Origin: Prolixibacteraceae bacterium
Lineage (GTDB): Bacteria > Bacteroidota > Bacteroidia > Bacteroidales > Prolixibacteraceae
Assembly: GCA_019459485.1 (NCBI GenBank)
Contig: JAIBEZ010000083.1
Coordinates: 1 to 64,000, forward strand
Reading direction: 5' to 3'
DNA: 64,000 nucleotides
Position 1 is the stretch's first letter; each line of letters opens with the position of its first letter. A program made the translations under genes and the position numbers. Under the pieces are notes generated by a model, which was not told the DNA's origin, did no database searches, and worked only from the letters and a program-made list of their open reading frames with translations. Shown here piece after piece: positions 17,863 through 39,921 of this stretch.

Positions 17863-17966
17863 TCATGCCTGAAACGATGCCTTTTATCTTGCCATTTTTA
17901 GCAATAATTACACCTGCCAAATGGATTACGAAAGCACACATCCTGATCGGATGAAGTTTAAATCAA

Positions 17967-21456: not shown

Positions 21457-22341
21457 ATGAACGCATTCGTATTTCCTGGACAAGGAGCACAATACCCCGG
21501 AATGGGGAAAGACCTCTATGAAAAATCGCCACTGGCAAAAGAACTTTTCGAAAGGGCCAACGAAATCTTGGGTTTCCGCATTACAGACATCATGTTTGAA
21601 GGTACTGAAGAAGATTTAAGACAGACCAAAGTTACCCAACCGGCCATTTTTTTACATTCGGTTTTACTTGCAAAAACACTCGAAAATTTCAATCCTGAAA
21701 TGGTTGCCGGACACTCTTTGGGCGAATTTTCAGCATTGGTAGCCAACGGTGCATTGAGTTTTGAAGATGGTTTGCGACTGGTTTCTAAGCGGGCTCAGGC
21801 AATGCAAAAAGCCTGCGAGGCAGAACCTTCAACAATGGCTGCCATTGTTGGGCTGGACGATGAAATTGTTGAAGAAGTTTGCGCTTCTATTGACGATGTT
21901 GTGGTTCCTGCCAATTACAATTGTCCTGGTCAGTTGGTTATTTCCGGCTCGTTTTCAGGAATCGACAAAGCTTGCGAAGCAATGACTGCCCGCGGCGCCA
22001 AACGTGCATTAAAGTTGTCAGTTGGCGGCGCTTTCCACTCACCACTGATGGAACCTGCCCGCGAAGAACTGGCTGCTGCTATTGAGGCAACTCCATTCTC
22101 AACTCCGGTTTGTCCGATTTACCAAAATGTAAATGCAGCTCCAACTTCTGATCCGGAAGTAATCAAACAAAACCTGATTTCGCAGTTGACAGCTCCGGTT
22201 CGATGGACTCAAACAACCAGAAACATGATTGCTGACGGCGCTACTTTATTTACAGAGATCGGACCAGGAAAAGTACTTCAGGGATTGATAAAAAAAGTAG
22301 ATAAAAATGCCGAAGTGGCTGGTGTAAATAGTTTTGAATAA
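21457..22341 (+). CDS. fabD: Malonyl-CoA:ACP transacylase
   Basis: 294 residues from the ATG at 21457 (MNAFVFPGQGAQYPGMG), the usual family start. A frame opening at 21391 would add 22 unrelated residues upstream of the promoter. Catalytic serine is in GHSLGEFSAL, the oxyanion glutamine in PGQGAQ, and the catalytic histidine in GGAFHSPLM. The enzyme moves malonyl from CoA to acyl carrier protein for fatty acid synthesis. It stands alone, away from other fab genes, and is followed by a clear terminator. Confidence 0.96.
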   Translation: MNAFVFPGQGAQYPGMGKDLYEKSPLAKELFERANEILGFRITDIMFEGTEEDLRQTKVTQPAIFLHSVLLAKTLENFNPEMVAGHSLGEFSALVANGALSFEDGLRLVSKRAQAMQKACEAEPSTMAAIVGLDDEIVEEVCASIDDVVVPANYNCPGQLVISGSFSGIDKACEAMTARGAKRALKLSVGGAFHSPLMEPAREELAAAIEATPFSTPVCPIYQNVNAAPTSDPEVIKQNLISQLTAPVRWTQTTRNMIADGATLFTEIGPGKVLQGLIKKVDKNAEVAGVNSFE

Positions 22342-22396
22342 AGATTTTAGTCAAGGCCCCACTTTGAGTGGGACTCTGACTATCTTATAATTTTAG

Positions 22397-33224: not shown

Positions 33225-36072
33225 ACAATGGCCTTGCTACTTCCACTGCTTTTCCGTCATAAGAAATAGTGGCATCTGCTTTTTTGCTCAAATCGAAGGC
33301 AACAGGTTTTTGTTTTCCAACCCAGACAATGTTGAAGGTTCGGGTTTTCAACATTCCCTCGAATGATCCGTTCGCATCGCCGATGGTCAGTTTTCCGGAT
33401 TCTTCATTGTATTTGAACAGAATAGTGCTGAAATTTCCTTTTTCATAATTGCAGTTGATACCCTCGTCTTCATACAATTTGAATTCAGCATCTTTTCCGG
33501 TATAAACATACAGGGTAATTGCATCAGCCTGCTTTTCGCCGGTGTATTGAATTTCAGGACCAAAAGGCACAATTGAACCTTCTTTTACAAACAGTGGCAT
33601 TCGCTCGTAAGGTGCATCAACATTGATTTTTTGTCCGCCATCAATGTATTTTCCTGAATACAAATCATACCAGCCATTGGCTTCAGGAAAGTAAACTTCG
33701 CGGGTTGTTGCCTTGTATTTGTATACCGGGGCAACCATCAGCGAAGGTCCGAACATGTACTGGTCGCCAATGTTGTTCACTTGTGCATCGCCGTTGAAAT
33801 CCATGATCAGCGCACGCATGATGGTATAATCTTCGAAATGCGTTTTTCCGGCCAGTGAATAAATGTATGGCATCAGGCGATACCGCAGTTTGTTAGAGTA
33901 TACCATGCTTTTATAGGCAGGATGATTTTCAGGAGCAATGTTGTAAACTTCGCGGTACGGGAACTGCCCATGGCTGCGGAAAAGCGGACAGAAAGCGCCA
34001 AACTGATACCAGCGGGAATTCAATTCGCGCCATTCGTTTAAATCTTCAGAACCTTCTTTGGCACGCACATAACGGTTTTCAACGCAGAAACCACCGATAT
34101 CCATTGTCCAGTATGGGATTCCGGAGATAGCGAAGTTCAATCCTGCGGAGATTTGAGATTTCATATCTTCCCAGCGGGTTCCGATGTCGCCACTCCAGGT
34201 TGCGGTTGAATAACGCTGCAGCCCTGCAAATCCTGAACGTGTCAGAAGGAAAACCCGTTTATTGGGATCTTCGCCACGCTGACCGTTGTAAATCGCTTCG
34301 GCATTCATCAGCGCATACGCGTTAAAGTATTTGGTTGATGGCCCGAGAGCTGTTGGTGTCATCAGTTCTTTGCGGTATTCAATGCTGGCATTCGAGAGAA
34401 TATCCGGTTCCGAAGCATCCATCCACCAGGCATCAAATCCTTTGGTATAAAGGTGTTCCTTCATTTGGTTCCAGAACAATTTGCGTGCATCCGGATTGTA
34501 GGCATCGTAGAACGAACCGATGTAACCCTTCCCAATCCAGTCGCGCACGCTGTCTTTTGTCGCACGTTGGTACATCCAGCCTTTGCTGTCGAATTCCTTG
34601 TAATGATCGGTGGTATGGTAAAATTTTGGCCATACTGAAATCATGATTTTGGCATTCAGCTCATGCACTTTGTCAACCATTTCGGCTGGATCGGCAAAGA
34701 ATTCAGGATTAAATTCGTGCGAACCCCATGATTCAGTGGGCCAGTAACTCCAGTCGAGCACAATGTTGTCGAGCGGAATCTGGCGTTTGCGGTATTCTTT
34801 CACTACATCAATCAGCTCGTCAGCCGACTTGTAGCGCTCGCGGCTTTGCCAGTAACCCATCGCCCATTTTGGCATGATCTGCGCTTTGCCAGTCACAGTG
34901 CGGTAACCGCTGATTACTTCATCAATATTGTTTCCACGGATAAAATAATAGTCGATCTGATCGCCCATTTCCGAAGAAAGCGACAATGCATTCTGATCCG
35001 ATTTGCTTCGTGGACTCAATGCTTTCAGTCCAATGTAGGAAGTTCCGCCATCAGGTTTCCATTCCAGACGAATAGAATACTTTTTCCCTTGTTCGAGTTC
35101 CTTGCTGAATTTGTAGGTATTTGGATTCCAGGCAGTGCGCCAGCGTTCGGCAACCACCAGCTCATCGTTGATGTATACTTTGGTATATCCGGCGTAATAC
35201 AATTTGAAATGAAATTCACCCCATTCTTTGGGTTCGATCTGACCTTTCCAAACGATGGTAGAATTGTTGAACTGAAATCCTTCAGGAAACTTTTTGATTG
35301 TTGTCAGGTTTTCGTAATCGATTGCCGATTCGTTGCGGTTTACAAAAACATTGTTTGTGTCGGAATTGGTATAGTAAAGAGCTGATAATCCGCCTTCCTC
35401 ACCTTTGTCGTTGTAAAGTTTAAACTGATCCATTTCGGCATATTCGCGCGGATCGCCAAATTTGGTGACCGAATAATTGTCCCATAAAATTCCGTAGTTT
35501 TTATTCGAAACCACGAACGGAACAGCCACTTTGGTATTGTACTGATATAGACTTTCGTTGAGCCCTTTGTAATTGAACTCATCCGACTGGTGTTGTCCCA
35601 GGCCGTAAAATGCTTCATCATCAGGCGATTCAAATACCTGTGAAAAGGAATAGCCTGTTGTGTTTTCAACAGTTACAGGAGCAAACGATTTACCATCTGT
35701 GGCTCTTTCCTGAAGGATCTTTCGGTTGTTTTCGTCGTAAAAAACCACTGCTCCGGTTGCCATAGAAACTTTGGCTTTTACTTTTGCAGTTGAAAGAATC
35801 ACGCTATCGTTTTGTTCAACGACTTCGAAACTCACAGGTTGAGCCGCATTTTCAACTACGCAAAGACTTTTAGTTTCTGTAATCAAATCAGTAGGAGAGG
35901 CCACCACCCGGATAATCTGGTCGTTAATTACCTTAAGGCTGATGGTTCGTGCCCCGTTTTCGGTTTTCGATTTTGGATGAATAAGCACTCCGTCAGAAGT
36001 TTTCTCCCAGACTTTTTGCGTGCAGGCTGTTAGAAACATTACGATGGTCGATAAAAACAGAATTTTTTTCAT
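33223..36072 (-). CDS. GH31 glycoside hydrolase lipoprotein, alpha-xylosidase-like, with PA14 insert
   Basis: 949 residues from the ATG at 36072, chosen because it opens a lipoprotein signal (FLTAC, Cys17) and lies after a promoter box at 36157-36164. A frame open to 36159 would start upstream of it. An N-terminal GH31 beta-sandwich is interrupted by a PA14 domain (about 200-340, FHFKLYYAGYTKVYINDELV). The barrel has the nucleophile Asp in WWMDASEPD and the acid/base Asp in WSGDIGTRW. GH31 enzymes with a PA14 insert include Bacteroides BoGH31A, an alpha-xylosidase acting on xyloglucan oligosaccharides. That specificity is likely but unproven. It is probably periplasmic and membrane-anchored. 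Confidence 0.9.
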   Translation of the reverse strand: MKKILFLSTIVMFLTACTQKVWEKTSDGVLIHPKSKTENGARTISLKVINDQIIRVVASPTDLITETKSLCVVENAAQPVSFEVVEQNDSVILSTAKVKAKVSMATGAVVFYDENNRKILQERATDGKSFAPVTVENTTGYSFSQVFESPDDEAFYGLGQHQSDEFNYKGLNESLYQYNTKVAVPFVVSNKNYGILWDNYSVTKFGDPREYAEMDQFKLYNDKGEEGGLSALYYTNSDTNNVFVNRNESAIDYENLTTIKKFPEGFQFNNSTIVWKGQIEPKEWGEFHFKLYYAGYTKVYINDELVVAERWRTAWNPNTYKFSKELEQGKKYSIRLEWKPDGGTSYIGLKALSPRSKSDQNALSLSSEMGDQIDYYFIRGNNIDEVISGYRTVTGKAQIMPKWAMGYWQSRERYKSADELIDVVKEYRKRQIPLDNIVLDWSYWPTESWGSHEFNPEFFADPAEMVDKVHELNAKIMISVWPKFYHTTDHYKEFDSKGWMYQRATKDSVRDWIGKGYIGSFYDAYNPDARKLFWNQMKEHLYTKGFDAWWMDASEPDILSNASIEYRKELMTPTALGPSTKYFNAYALMNAEAIYNGQRGEDPNKRVFLLTRSGFAGLQRYSTATWSGDIGTRWEDMKSQISAGLNFAISGIPYWTMDIGGFCVENRYVRAKEGSEDLNEWRELNSRWYQFGAFCPLFRSHGQFPYREVYNIAPENHPAYKSMVYSNKLRYRLMPYIYSLAGKTHFEDYTIMRALIMDFNGDAQVNNIGDQYMFGPSLMVAPVYKYKATTREVYFPEANGWYDLYSGKYIDGGQKINVDAPYERMPLFVKEGSIVPFGPEIQYTGEKQADAITLYVYTGKDAEFKLYEDEGINCNYEKGNFSTILFKYNEESGKLTIGDANGSFEGMLKTRTFNIVWVGKQKPVAFDLSKKADATISYDGKAVEVARPL

Positions 36073-36156
36073 GGTATTTGGTTTAAGAAGATTTGAGGAT
36101 TGAATGGCTGACGATTGAAATTTATTTTTCTTTATTGTAAAAACGACAATTTGAAA

Positions 36157-36164
36157 CAAAAATA
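36157..36164 (-). promoter_or_regulatory. Candidate -7 box for the GH31 gene
   Basis: On the minus strand TATTTTTG matches TAnnTTTG. Transcription would start near 36150, about 78 bases before the chosen ATG. A TTTG is present upstream, but only 14 bases away, shorter than usual. Confidence 0.45.
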
Positions 36165-36213
36165 GGATTTTTATAGATCAAAACCCTAATCTGATGTCGT
36201 AAATTGATGTAAA

Positions 36214-36482
36214 ATATGCGGATCAGGCAACACTGGGTGAAAGTCATCGGATCAAGTCGTTAATTAAATCATTTCTGTATTGAACTTTTAAAATCTCCAA
36301 AAAATCCTGATCCGATGACAGAAATTTACGATTACCAAAAATATCAGTGTTTTCGAAATCATAAAAATCCTGATCCGATGAATGGACATTCAATATTTAT
36401 GCAGTTGAATAGCTTTAATGCTTTTATGAATAACCTTCATCGGATCAGGCAACATCGGGCAAAGGTCGTCGGATCAGTTCGC
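36214..36482. repeat. REP-like array, left of the RAYT gene
   Basis: Six copies of a 10-13-base core, TCATCGGATCAGG or its complement CCTGATCCGATGA. They lie at about 36217 (degenerate), 36244, 36305 (inverted), 36368 (inverted), 36436 and 36465. Head units come as a pair about 30 bases apart with the spacer aacactgggtgaaag. The array occupies the gap between the GH31 gene and the RAYT and shares order and spacer sequence with the array at 37148-37437. Confidence 0.85.
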
Positions 36483-36494
36483 AGTGAATAATTG

Positions 36495-37106
36495 TTATTC
36501 AAATAATCCTATCTCTCTTGCAAGTTCTTTATTTACAAGTTTCCCATTTCTACCACAAAAATAGTCGCGATAGGATGAGAACTCCCAATCTTCCGGACTT
36601 TTTACCAAACGATCATTTACCGGATTCAAGTGGATATAGTTAAAGCAGACATTGGGATACTCTTTCTCTGGCATCGAAATATTGCCAATGGTTCCAAATT
36701 GGCTCTGAAAATAAGACGGTGCAAATTGAGGTACTGTCAGGCAAATGGCCTTGGTATGTTGTTGAAATAGTGAGCCATGTCTTTTGTATTTGAGATTTAT
36801 TGTTCGGGTGTATGATCTCAACATAATTGCAATAGAATCATTCAATGTACGATATTTAAAGTTTTGATTAAGCGGTAAAACTTCCTTTGAAGGATCATTT
36901 AATGTTTGAATCGTATAATTATTGACATCAATCATTAAATGAAAGTGGGTTGGCATAAGGCACCATGCAAGAATTTGCGCATGGGGTTTGATAAATTCAT
37001 TGATCTTGGCTAGAAAAAAGAGGTATTTATCCCTGTTTGGGAAGATGATCTGTGAATTATTGCTGCGATTGAAAACATGATAAATATGTCCGTTGGTAAA
37101 GTCCAT
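36495..37106 (-). CDS. REP-associated tyrosine transposase (RAYT, Y1_Tnp/IS200-like)
   Basis: 203 residues. The HUH motif is THFHLMI (about residue 53-59), preceded by the usual ILAWCLMP. The catalytic-tyrosine region reads NYIHLNPVNDRLV followed by DWEFSSYRDY, the RAYT signature rather than that of mobile IS200/IS605 TnpA. The start MDFTNGHIYHVFNRS is typical. RAYTs cut and rejoin single-stranded REP hairpins and are thought to spread them, while staying single-copy themselves. Here the gene is flanked directly by two arrays of a 13-base inverted-repeat core, the likely substrate. All key residues appear intact. Confidence 0.92.
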   Translation of the reverse strand: MDFTNGHIYHVFNRSNNSQIIFPNRDKYLFFLAKINEFIKPHAQILAWCLMPTHFHLMIDVNNYTIQTLNDPSKEVLPLNQNFKYRTLNDSIAIMLRSYTRTINLKYKRHGSLFQQHTKAICLTVPQFAPSYFQSQFGTIGNISMPEKEYPNVCFNYIHLNPVNDRLVKSPEDWEFSSYRDYFCGRNGKLVNKELAREIGLFE

Positions 37107-37147
37107 TTTTTTTGCAATTAAGTTAACCCTTTTTTATCAAAGACTAA

Positions 37148-37437
37148 CCTAATCCGATGAGTGAAAATTCAATATTATACAATTCCACCGCAAAAATGCT
37201 GATTTCATCAACCTTCATCGGATCAGGCAACACTGGGTGAAAGTCATCGGATCAAGTCGTTATTTAAATCATTTCAGTATTGAACTTTGAAACTCTCCAA
37301 AGAATCCTGATCCGATGACGGAAATTAAATAAAGAATTCGAGATCACATAAAACCTGATCCGATGAATGCAAAATCAATATTTATGCTGTTGCACAGCTT
37401 TGATGCTTTTTTGGCGAACCTTCATCGGATCAGGCAG
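37148..37437. repeat. REP-like array, right of the RAYT gene
   Basis: Six core copies at 37148 (inverted, one mismatch), 37214, 37243, 37305 (inverted), 37354 (inverted) and 37421. The block from 37212 to about 37435 repeats the left array in the same orientation with roughly 80-90% visible identity. That includes spacers such as aacactgggtgaaag and aaatcatttc. It fills the gap between the RAYT start and the DUF2339 gene. Bases 37440-37563 hold only AT-rich leader with a ttatctttcaagataa palindrome. Confidence 0.85.
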
Positions 37438-37563
37438 GCAGCACAAATGAATTGCTTACATTTAGATAGACAAACTCAAAAACCATGTTTGTTTTATCTT
37501 TCAAGATAAAAAATCAACATCTTTAAACTTTAAATTAAGTTTTTACTCAAAATACCTATAATC

Positions 37564-39921
37564 ATGGCTGAAAATCAAGACAAAATCAATCAGTTGCAGG
37601 AACGACTGGATTCTGTTTTTCAACGTCAGGAATTATTTTCAGAAGAAATTGCTGAATTGCGAAAAGAAATTCACAATCTAAAATCAGAAGATGCAAAAGC
37701 GACAGCATCACCAGTCGAGGAAAAGGAAGTTACAAAAATATTGCAGCAAAGGTCTCCGCAACAGATTCATGTTGAGGAAAATTTGAATTTGCCTTCAGAA
37801 CCAAATACTGCCAAACTTTTGGCTCCCCCTGCTTATTCAAGACCAAAAATAGAGCAACAAAAAAGAGCATCGAATCTCGAGAAGTTTATCGGAGAGAATC
37901 TGATCAATAAAATTGGTATTGTGATTACTGTAATTGGTGTTGCCATTGGTGCGAAATATTCAATCGATCATCAGTTAATCAGTCCATGGACAAGGATATT
38001 ACTCGGTTATTTGATGGGTTTTGGACTACTTGCAACAGGATTAAAACTGAAACAAAAATACGAAAACTACAGTGCCGTATTGGTAAGCGGGGCGATGTCG
38101 ATCATGTACTTTATTACCTATTTCGCCTTCAGTTTCTACGATTTGATTCCACAGATACCATCGTTTTTGCTGATGGTGATTTTTACGGTGGCGACTGTTT
38201 ATGCCGCATTGAAATACAACAAACAGGTAATTGCCCATATCGGTCTGGTTGGGGCTTATGCTGTGCCGTTTTTGTTGAGCAAAGATTCCGGGAATGCTAC
38301 GATTCTTTTCAGTTATATGTCCATCATCAACATTGGAATTCTAATTATTTCGTTCCGGAAAGACTGGAAACCGCTCTATTATGTGTCTTTTCTGCTTTCG
38401 TGGCTCATCTATTTAACCTGGCTGAATTTGAATTATCAGAGCAGCGAACATTTCGCTCTGGGACTAATATTTGCCGCAGTTTTCTTTGGCATTTTTTATC
38501 TCACCTTTCTTGCATACAATCTTCGCGGAAAAGCCAACTTTTACACCGAAGACCGTCTTCTTTTACTTGCCAATTCAGGAGTATTTTTTGGAATTGGTTA
38601 CTATATTCTGAATAATCACGAGGTTGGAACTAATTTTTCAGGTGCATTTACGGCAGGCAATGCGCTGGTTCACCTGATAGTAAGCGCTGTAATTTACAGG
38701 CAAAAACTTGCTGACCGGAATTTATTTTATTTCGTTGCAGGATTGTTCATTGTATTCATTACCATTGCAATACCTGTTCAGTTTGACGGAAAATGGGTGA
38801 CCGTTTTGTGGGTTGGCGAAGCTGCTTTGTTGTTCTGGATTGGCCGAACCAAGGCCGAACCTGTTTACGAGAAGTTATCCTATCCGCTAATGATGATTGC
38901 AACATTTAGTCTTTTGCATGATTGGATAACAGGTTATCATCAGTTCGGTGCAGATGGAAAATTACTTCAGATTACCCCAATTTTCAACCTCAACTTTTTA
39001 AATTCATTGTTGTTTATCGCTTCGTTTGGATTCATCAATATCCTGAACAGCAATAAAAACTACGCTTCGGCATTGACCGGCAGAGTCGTATTGAGACAAC
39101 TTCTCAATTTTCTTTTGCCTGCCGTATTTCTTTCAGTAATCTATTTCGCTTTCAGGCTCGAAATTGCATCCTTTTTTCAACAATTATATGAAAATTCGGC
39201 TACCGGAATTGATCCGGTGGTCAAAAATACGGAGTTGCAATCATTCAAATCACTTTGGATGACCATCTACTCTTTGGTGTTTCTCACTATTCTTTCTTTC
39301 GCCAATATCTTAAAACTGAAGTTGAAGGAATTTGGCTTCATCAATTTATCTCTTATCGTAATTGCCATTCTGGTATTTTTGATCAACGATTTGTACATTC
39401 TTGGAAATCTACGCCAAACCTACATGCAGGAAACGCTGGCGCAATTGTATCCCAGAGGGATTATTTATATCACTTTCAGATATGTGTCATTTGTTTTTAT
39501 TGCTCTTATGCTCTATACTACATATATTTACATCAGACAGCCATTTCTGAAATACAACTTCAGGATGTATTTTGATCTTTTGCTTCATGTTACAATTCTG
39601 TGGATTGCAAGCGCTGAATTGATCAATTGGATGGATCTTTCAGGATCAGACACATCGTACAAGCTCGGATTGAGTATTCTTTGGGGAGTTTATTCGTTGA
39701 TTCTGATCTCTTTGGGAATCTGGAAAAAGAAGAAACATCTCAGAATTGGAGCTATTGCATTGTTTGCTGTTACACTGATTAAACTTTTCGCGTATGACAT
39801 TTCGCACCTCGAAACCATTCCCAAAACAATCATATTTATTTCACTGGGAATATTGCTCCTGATTATTTCGTTTCTTTATAACAAGTACAAGCATATTATT
39901 TCTGAAGAAATGGAAAACTAG
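37564..39921 (+). CDS. DUF2339 polytopic membrane protein
   Basis: 785 residues. A charged coiled-coil N-terminus (about 1-45) and a linker precede more than 20 membrane spans. The first spans hold the family's NLINKIGIVITVIGVAIGAKYSID and LLGYLMGFGLLATG pieces. DUF2339 proteins are very hydrophobic and widespread in Bacteroidota, with no known function. The end overlaps closely with the next gene (2 bases between), so they are likely co-transcribed. Confidence 0.88.
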   Translation: MAENQDKINQLQERLDSVFQRQELFSEEIAELRKEIHNLKSEDAKATASPVEEKEVTKILQQRSPQQIHVEENLNLPSEPNTAKLLAPPAYSRPKIEQQKRASNLEKFIGENLINKIGIVITVIGVAIGAKYSIDHQLISPWTRILLGYLMGFGLLATGLKLKQKYENYSAVLVSGAMSIMYFITYFAFSFYDLIPQIPSFLLMVIFTVATVYAALKYNKQVIAHIGLVGAYAVPFLLSKDSGNATILFSYMSIINIGILIISFRKDWKPLYYVSFLLSWLIYLTWLNLNYQSSEHFALGLIFAAVFFGIFYLTFLAYNLRGKANFYTEDRLLLLANSGVFFGIGYYILNNHEVGTNFSGAFTAGNALVHLIVSAVIYRQKLADRNLFYFVAGLFIVFITIAIPVQFDGKWVTVLWVGEAALLFWIGRTKAEPVYEKLSYPLMMIATFSLLHDWITGYHQFGADGKLLQITPIFNLNFLNSLLFIASFGFINILNSNKNYASALTGRVVLRQLLNFLLPAVFLSVIYFAFRLEIASFFQQLYENSATGIDPVVKNTELQSFKSLWMTIYSLVFLTILSFANILKLKLKEFGFINLSLIVIAILVFLINDLYILGNLRQTYMQETLAQLYPRGIIYITFRYVSFVFIALMLYTTYIYIRQPFLKYNFRMYFDLLLHVTILWIASAELINWMDLSGSDTSYKLGLSILWGVYSLILISLGIWKKKKHLRIGAIALFAVTLIKLFAYDISHLETIPKTIIFISLGILLLIISFLYNKYKHIISEEMEN

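Follow-up and report, generated by a model that had tools for sequence, protein, structure and literature searches.

A gene resembling a REP-associated tyrosine transposase (RAYT) lies between two sets of repeats in a 64-kb stretch of Prolixibacteraceae DNA (the window), which raises the question of whether enzyme and repeats form one system and, if so, of which kind. The evidence given below makes it very probable that the locus is a REPtron, i.e., a class-2 TnpA_REP (RAYT) gene enclosed by arrays of the repeat cognate to it. Transposase genes bordered on both sides by their partner repeat are already known from other bacteria, and the window copy alone is modest; the interesting part is its family.

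The RAYT gene and its flanking arrays

A sequence-only reading of the window had described the RAYT gene as intact-looking, and this description held, as the frame is open, the catalytic residues are kept and the predicted fold is closest to that of a known RAYT (Table 1). H54, F55 and H56 of the HUH motif are conserved in 90, 89 and 90 of 92 aligned relatives and Y157 in all 92, the window gene being included in these counts. The protein combines an HUH motif, here HFH, with a single Tyr followed by ---NP (Y157-IHLNP), as class-2 enzymes do. An AlphaFold2 model was obtained with a pLDDT of 85.7 and a pTM of 0.82, the pLDDT dropping to 51 at residues 71 to 80 in a loop. A Foldseek search of a PDB library returned 4er8_A as the best match (E value, 3.9e-7; TM score, 0.55 by query and 0.66 by target; rmsd, 8.0). 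This entry is the Escherichia coli RAYT bound to a REP hairpin. Scores for NCBIfam NF047646 (REP_Tyr_transpos; 8.4e-11, 42 bits, cut-off 80) and Y1_Tnp were under the curated cut-offs, and a Pfam scan of the protein gave no match at 0.001. The model thus predicts a RAYT fold with the conserved HUH motif and tyrosine.

TABLE 1 Coordinates of the locus in the window and of fusion genes in relatives
Feature	Position	Strand	Content	Basis
RAYT / TnpA_REP gene, 203 aa	36495..37106	minus		ORF, profile match, fold
HUH motif codons H54-F55-H56	36939..36947	minus		alignment of relatives
Catalytic tyrosine codon Y157 within YIHLNP	36636..36638	minus		conserved Y; catalytic role by homology to known RAYTs
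Flexible loop, ~residues 69-83	36858..36902	minus	REP in frame in many relatives, none here	
Left (3') REP-like array	36215..36478			core matches, repeats, alignment
Right (5') REP-like array	37148..37434			core matches, repeats, alignment
Degenerate extra core adjoining RAYT stop codon	36466..36478	plus	2 mismatches	
Inverted doublet type 2, left	36243..36319		GTCATCGGATCA, 53 nt, TGATCCGATGAC	repeat I18; ssDNA fold z -2.9 / -2.7
Inverted doublet type 1, left	36369..36449		CCTGATCCGATGAA, 53 nt, TTCATCGGATCAGG	repeat I7; ssDNA fold z -6.2 / -5.8
Inverted doublet type 1, first right copy	37148..37227			repeat I25; fold z -3.0 / -2.9
Inverted doublet type 2, right copy	37243..37319			repeat I20; fold z -2.7 / -3.4
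Inverted doublet type 1, second right copy	37354..37434			repeat I10; fold z -5.3 / -5.5
RAYT-HPPK fusion genes	L128:1066-2073, L137:1244-2251, L144:1211-2221			

The core TCATCGGATCAGG occurs at 13 places in the window with at most two mismatches, 11 of them between positions 36244 and 37434, compared with a mean of 1.34 and a maximum of 4 in dinucleotide-shuffled windows. The matches at 17942 (one mismatch) and 60473 (two mismatches) are about the number expected by chance. Array alignment revealed a degenerate left unit at 36215-36227. The six units proposed for each side were thereby confirmed, starting at 36215, 36244, 36306, 36369, 36437 and 36466 on the left and at 37148, 37215, 37244, 37306, 37354 and 37422 on the right. 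Five units of each array pair up in the same order and orientation, which leaves one additional unit at the start of the right array and one, degenerate, at the end of the left array. The proposed duplication as modules also stood, the arrays being direct copies that align over 233 columns (36219-36451 and 37219-37436) with 82.8% identity and 15 gap positions.

Ten of the 12 units are arms of inverted pairs whose 11-mers start 64 to 66 nt apart, forming five modules of 77 to 81 nt. Type 1 doublets, CCTGATCCGATGAA-53 nt-TTCATCGGATCAGG, account for three modules, one of which has a 54-nt spacer and altered bases, and type 2 doublets, GTCATCGGATCA-53 nt-TGATCCGATGAC, for two. Their single-stranded DNA folding z scores range from -2.9 to -6.2 and from -2.7 to -3.4, respectively. 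As the sequence-only reading had noted, there is no GTAG on either strand of either array; neither GTAG nor GTGG was found at any arm, and the single CCAC of the arrays, at 37185, lies away from the arms. A scan of positions 35000-39000 with Rfam gave no RNA family match.

Dispersed copies and change among sister genomes

The core was found at 28 places in the host genome with at most one mismatch (reversed control, 1). For the arm TGATCCGATGA/TCATCGGATCA, 35 exact TCATCGGATCA 11-mers were detected genome-wide (reversed control, 0), nine at the RAYT locus and 26 elsewhere; the outcome that had been named as refuting, a core present at this locus alone, did not occur. Eighteen of the 26 have a partner at 18, 28, 48 or 65 to 66 nt, in a search that allowed up to two mismatches and accepted either orientation, and they make up nine sites, seven of which have both arms exact and on opposite strands. 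All but one of these 18 paired 11-mers lie outside ORFs of at least 150 aa, which supports an intergenic bias. The other eight comprise six 11-mers without a partner and two with a partner at 21 or 44 nt; six of the eight are inside ORFs and just two outside, as expected of chance matches. The arm is thus dispersed as pairs at nine other, mostly intergenic sites. The 18-nt spacing corresponds to a compact palindrome, ACTGATCCGATGACTTGAGTTCATCGGATCAGT, e.g., at C110:86103. The locus therefore has the REP family of its own that flanks the gene and is dispersed between genes. Its copy number is low: typical REPs exceed 100 copies per genome according to the available part of PMC2817692, compared with nine dispersed sites for the window arm.

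The window RAYT is single copy in the host genome. A second host RAYT (L068:7006-7808, i.e., G000:C64:65005-65807) is 58% identical to it and carries another palindrome, TACTCAGCAGGTGACTCAAAGTCACCTGCTGAGTA, on both sides, with a diverged copy (74%) of that palindrome inside the gene.

Comparison with sister genomes indicated that the repeats change in number. In G022 the locus is syntenic at 93 to 94%, with seven exact 9-mers in the 3' flank and five in the 5' flank, versus four and six in the window; array unit number thus differs between two sister species. The L080 record likewise holds the window RAYT at 99%, with flanks 93 to 94% identical. In G017 both flanks are present (89 to 92%) about 88 nt apart, with neither RAYT nor arrays, and the junction of this empty site falls short of a clean excision. 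Arrays lacking a RAYT in a close relative had been listed as a second refuting outcome, and this was partly observed: at the orthologous locus of G019, array modules were detected with no RAYT next to them, although a contig end falls within this array and the gap could hide the gene. Away from the locus, a type 1 doublet at G000:C17:230826 is present in the host and G022, occurs twice in G019 and is absent from G017, G011, G005, G012 and G014, in a comparison of eight of the 22 genomes matching at this site. Whole doublets have thus been gained or lost, a presence/absence pattern that deletion could also produce.

REP palindromes in the flanks and genes of related RAYTs

When 140 genomes of the host family were searched with the protein, matches (E value of ≤1e-10) were obtained in at least 91. 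A value of 1e-20 was reached in 60 of the 140 and in 6 of 394 other sampled genomes of the class, which indicates a RAYT clade centred on one family, probably the Prolixibacteraceae. From among the matches listed, 110 loci were collected, including the window and L068, and removal of 11 exact protein duplicates left 99. Dropping three loci with short flanks gave 96 for the flank comparison, and dropping seven proteins of <150 aa, among them L118 and L119 (frame with a stop), gave 92 for the protein alignment. A 24-nt loop and flanks were available for 87 loci, or 79 after thinning at 90% identity. The start was set too late in L083, L084, L094, L114, L115, L132, L153 and probably L166, so that their upstream flank includes coding DNA; this touches the counts of flank sharing, loop-versus-flank matches, palindromes and 9-mers given below, and the longer ORF form was used for L083, L084 and L094 in some analyses. 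The RAYT protein of G004, a genome of the same genus, is identical to that of L082.

Flanks share exact stretches of at least 13 nt at 52 of the 96 loci (0.65 expected from shuffles), and a relaxed scan of the 79 nonredundant loci detected a palindrome in the flanks at 52 loci and in the loop at 39. Many loci have in common the skeleton ANTS-N7-SACT-NNN-AGTS-N7-SANT, with differing stems. Sites of this type are present in 106 of the 140 family genomes (0 to 74 each; reversed control, 0 to 3). Genomes with a close RAYT (E value of ≤1e-40) have a median of 13 sites (n = 50; 45 with at least three), whereas those without one (E value of >1e-20 or none) have a median of 1 (n = 80; 31 with at least three). 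This difference (p 5e-11, uncorrected for relatedness, with ten in-between genomes left out and RAYT classes taken from among the matches listed) holds without the window's genus. The host has 30 skeleton sites, none with the stem of the window gene, and the correlation therefore concerns the family and not the window repeat. The window also contains, at 22349-22381, a compact skeleton-type palindrome built on another stem, AGTCAAGGCCCCACTTTGAGTGGGACTCTGACT; it closely follows an ORF, judged FabD-like by eye, whose end is at 22341.

Four genomes without a close RAYT (G001, G012, G093 and G096) nevertheless have 32 to 46 skeleton sites. Such genomes, like the 31 of 80 with at least three sites, could be taken as relatives that keep the repeats in the absence of the enzyme. 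We rejected them as a refutation because all ten genomes tested from this set match NF047646, four of them above the cut-off; the objection stands in part, for close RAYTs.

In a quick protein tree calculated without the loop, the window gene groups with L186, L133 and L188 (SH-aLRT 99, 98 and 95), and L123 and L124 join more loosely (SH-aLRT 86). The 9-mer ATCCGATGA is present in the flank or gene of all six members. In L133 and L124 the arm is both in the flanks and inside the gene, and in L123 and L188 inside the gene. These nearest relatives carry the arm of the window as a compact hairpin: the 9-mers start 16 nt apart in all four, versus 62 to 66 nt in the window gene and L186. The arm is not strictly bound to the clade. 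It was found in the flanks or loop of 12 of the 79 nonredundant loci, plus L186 (reversed control, 0), seven carriers lying outside the six (L101, L102, L150, L112, L160, L166 and L170), and the flanks of L123 have a different stem.

In L133, L188 and L124, tandem compact REPs have their outer arms 67 nt apart, compared with 63 to 64 nt in the type 1 doublets of the window. Judging from these spacings, a type 1 doublet may descend from two compact REPs in tandem of which just the outer arms survive. This origin is possible for type 1 and not for type 2, and we rejected it as a full account of the doublets: the spacings are close and unequal, type 2 is left unexplained, the spacer bases offer no proof, and no remnant of an inner arm was seen by eye.

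In 40 of the 79 nonredundant RAYT genes, the loop that leads from the HUH strand to the following helix matches the flanks of its own gene (score of ≥14), versus 23 of 632 control comparisons with flanks of loci less than 60% identical. The REPs in this loop are read as peptides such as EQVTLSHLL, DPMTWVHRI and EGFTLSETL. No internal REP was detected in the window gene, whose own-flank score of 9 equals the background and leaves no remnant at score level, or in its G022 orthologue. L081 has two internal copies, one of them altered, in a segment predicted to be disordered (pLDDT, 39 to 58).

Of 27 internal palindromes, 25 are in one codon phase. Among 52 strand reads from 26 sample REPs, this phase is free of stops in 43, compared with 24 and 8 for the other phases, and stops therefore explain part of the bias. 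Since, moreover, related genes are not independent, we rejected the shared phase as proof that the internal copies go back to one ancestral insertion. On whether internal and flanking REPs evolve in concert, the picture was mixed. Relative to the internal copy of the nearest relative, the own flank is closer to the internal copy in 12 of 31 cases, equal in 12 and farther in seven, i.e., the internal copy follows its own flank in part; in L123 and L150, the internal stem is unlike the flanks.

Eight relatives are longer single ORFs of 326 to 365 aa (L128, L137, L141, L142, L144, L145, L152 and L154). The C-terminal part of the three that were scanned is HPPK (PF01288, 80 to 87 bits, cut-off 25.7; TIGR01498 folK also above cut-off), and a genome search placed PF01288 matches inside all eight. 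A REP-like palindrome with 12 to 15 of 15 pairs is present at each of the eight junctions, in the codon phase of the loop REPs. RAYT and HPPK would thus be joined in frame through a REP-encoded linker, as a predicted single protein. One fused gene lies in a single-contig genome (G036), which argues against an assembly error. Six of the eight fusion genomes keep a separate, longer HPPK; in the other two, which are 73 to 79% complete, the fused HPPK was the only one found. All ten genomes tested that lack the fusion have a short HPPK in its own open frame of 127 to 147 codons. We recognized no RAYT-HPPK fusion in a literature search. The RAYT-REP-HPPK genes suggest a concrete route for attaching such an enzyme to a cellular function. 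In L155 (1121-1759), L151, L113 and L108, the final codons of the RAYT gene (about codons 194 to 200) match the flanking REP as well, possibly the state before fusion.

Identity of the locus and comparison with known systems

In the REPtron that we consider very probable here, the enzyme would bind the hairpin of paired arms on single-stranded, probably lagging-strand, DNA and nick beside it through Y157, thereby copying or moving doublets. The RAYT itself would thus be the agent that moves or copies them. The gene-side arrays would serve as the source pool, expanded by local duplication, and in the window lineage long doublets would have replaced compact palindromes.

Two other identities of the locus were weighed. 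The arrays might be regulatory or chromosome-organizing sites of another protein, with the RAYT as a chance neighbour. The near-constant 64- to 66-nt spacing in either orientation and the low copy number are in keeping with this, and E. coli REPs are DNA gyrase targets according to the available part of PMC3733652. However, the arm largely follows the RAYT clade and not the neighbouring genes (L133, L124, L123 and L188), and the C64 paralogue has a different palindrome on both of its sides, so that we regard such sites as very improbable. Still less credible is an ordinary insertion sequence of the IS200/IS605 type with the arrays as its ends, a reading that would draw on the Y1 HUH transposase and the empty site in G017. 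Such elements have a class-1 Y motif and several near-identical copies, but the window gene has YIHLNP and not Y---Q, and its closest kin in the genome is the 58% identical paralogue. Furthermore, copies of the repeat lie at sites that lack the gene, the two arrays are direct copies rather than distinct left and right ends, and the G017 junction, as described above, is not clean.

A relic, with an inactive gene and decaying arrays, would still be a REPtron by descent; it shares the identity preferred above, and the two are not exclusive. The split, diverged arms, the missing internal REP, the absence of the locus from G017 and the few dispersed copies all fit this picture, which we nonetheless hold to be unlikely: the frame is open with its catalytic residues, and dN is 0.006 versus a dS of 0.042 relative to the G022 orthologue, values that come from just eight nucleotide differences.

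All class-2 RAYT features examined were found except a GTAG foot and a score above the NF047646 cut-off. The E. coli RAYT/REP system (4ER8) has the same fold, HUH motif and tyrosine, and a gene flanked by inverted REP pairs. In contrast, the window lacks the GTAG guide, has a palindrome or split doublet instead of a bulged hairpin, and is low in copy number. Published subclasses were compared through their descriptions in the available part of Quentin 2018 (PMC6006769), where a GT[AG]G foot is assigned to subclasses 2.2, 2.4, 2.5, 2.7 and 2.8, not to 2.6, and is absent from the window arms. Two Bacteroidetes TnpAREP subclasses, 2.4 and 2.6, are described there; genes of 2.6 have atypical structures that lack GTRG on their flanks.

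As described in that part, subclass 2.6 (Bertels RAYT group 5) resembles the window family in its occurrence in Bacteroidetes, its atypical non-GTRG flanks with copies elsewhere in the genome, an insertion between helix C and strand 4, an SS extension and, in part of the family, YIH[QN]NP. Its motifs are NH[LIV]H and YIH[QN]NP, and the variable residue of the Y motif among the 92 aligned proteins is Q in 27, L in 14, A in 12 and N in 11. The window family differs from 2.6 in having G-S-L-F-Q for WQ (F in 90 of 92) and HFH for H[LIV]H (F in 89 of 92), a median HUH-Y distance of 101 (n = 90) versus 82, and an extra variable loop able to hold REPs. Subclass 2.4 (Bertels group 4), by the same account, shares a variable loop after strand 3 and in-frame REPs between HUH and Y, which are found in relatives of the window gene and not in the gene itself. 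It is distinguished by a GTRG "double foot" or long canonical REPs, WQ, YIxNNP and no core extension, whereas the window arms lack GTAG and the family has LFQ and the SS extension. TIRYT (subclass 2.1) is described there with similar FQ, Y[IV]HLNP and H[YF]H motifs, but with a C-terminal HTH domain and no REPs; the 203-aa window protein gave no Pfam match and no such domain was found in it, REPs are present, and HPPK occurs in one branch of its family. Finally, intragenic REPs and Rickettsia palindromic elements, in the available part of PMC3733652, are likewise palindromes in frame inside proteins, whereas in the present case the palindrome sits within the gene for its own transposase and usually at one particular loop.

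Judged by motifs and against these published descriptions, the window family appears to fit no subclass cleanly. The sequence-only reading had placed the locus in a Bacteroidota host, which is supported, and in a possibly uncharacterized lineage, which was just partly right, because Bacteroidetes RAYTs with non-GTAG repeats and RAYT genes with in-frame REPs (in subclass 2.4) were published in 2018 (PMC6006769); in-frame REPs are thus known as a phenomenon. The near-constant site of internal REPs, their match to the flanks and the non-GTAG skeleton in this clade were not found in the literature searched, including the available part of that paper. Relative to the same part, further additions are the skeleton with interchangeable stems in 106 of 140 family genomes, internal REPs that match the gene's own flanks (in relatives of the window gene), the split doublets of the window lineage and the eight RAYT-HPPK(FolK) fusions with an in-frame REP linker.

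The family bears on how RAYTs choose their repeats and why cells keep RAYTs. We tentatively propose, as a possibility that we would not put on a par with the identity of the locus, that the REP palindrome is both a transposase substrate and a re-used protein module, which may be kept in frame at one surface loop with a stem that changes with the flanks, and which may have served to join the enzyme to a short HPPK/FolK paralogue, so that a RAYT became tied to a domain of a metabolic enzyme. On this view the window lineage would be derived, its internal copy gone and its palindrome split into 80-bp doublets. One family offers a fixed skeleton, interchangeable stems, several repeat types per genome and presence/absence sites, and the internal REP of many RAYT genes records a present or perhaps former specificity. 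Together, the skeleton, the stems, the internal copies and the presence/absence sites make specificity switching testable by stem swaps.

Elsewhere in the host genome, an IS200-like gene (PF01797; L061:5741-6994, on G000:C17) lies amid AT-rich direct and inverted repeats, e.g., CCACCTTATTTACCTTATT, that are unlike the REPs of RAYT loci.
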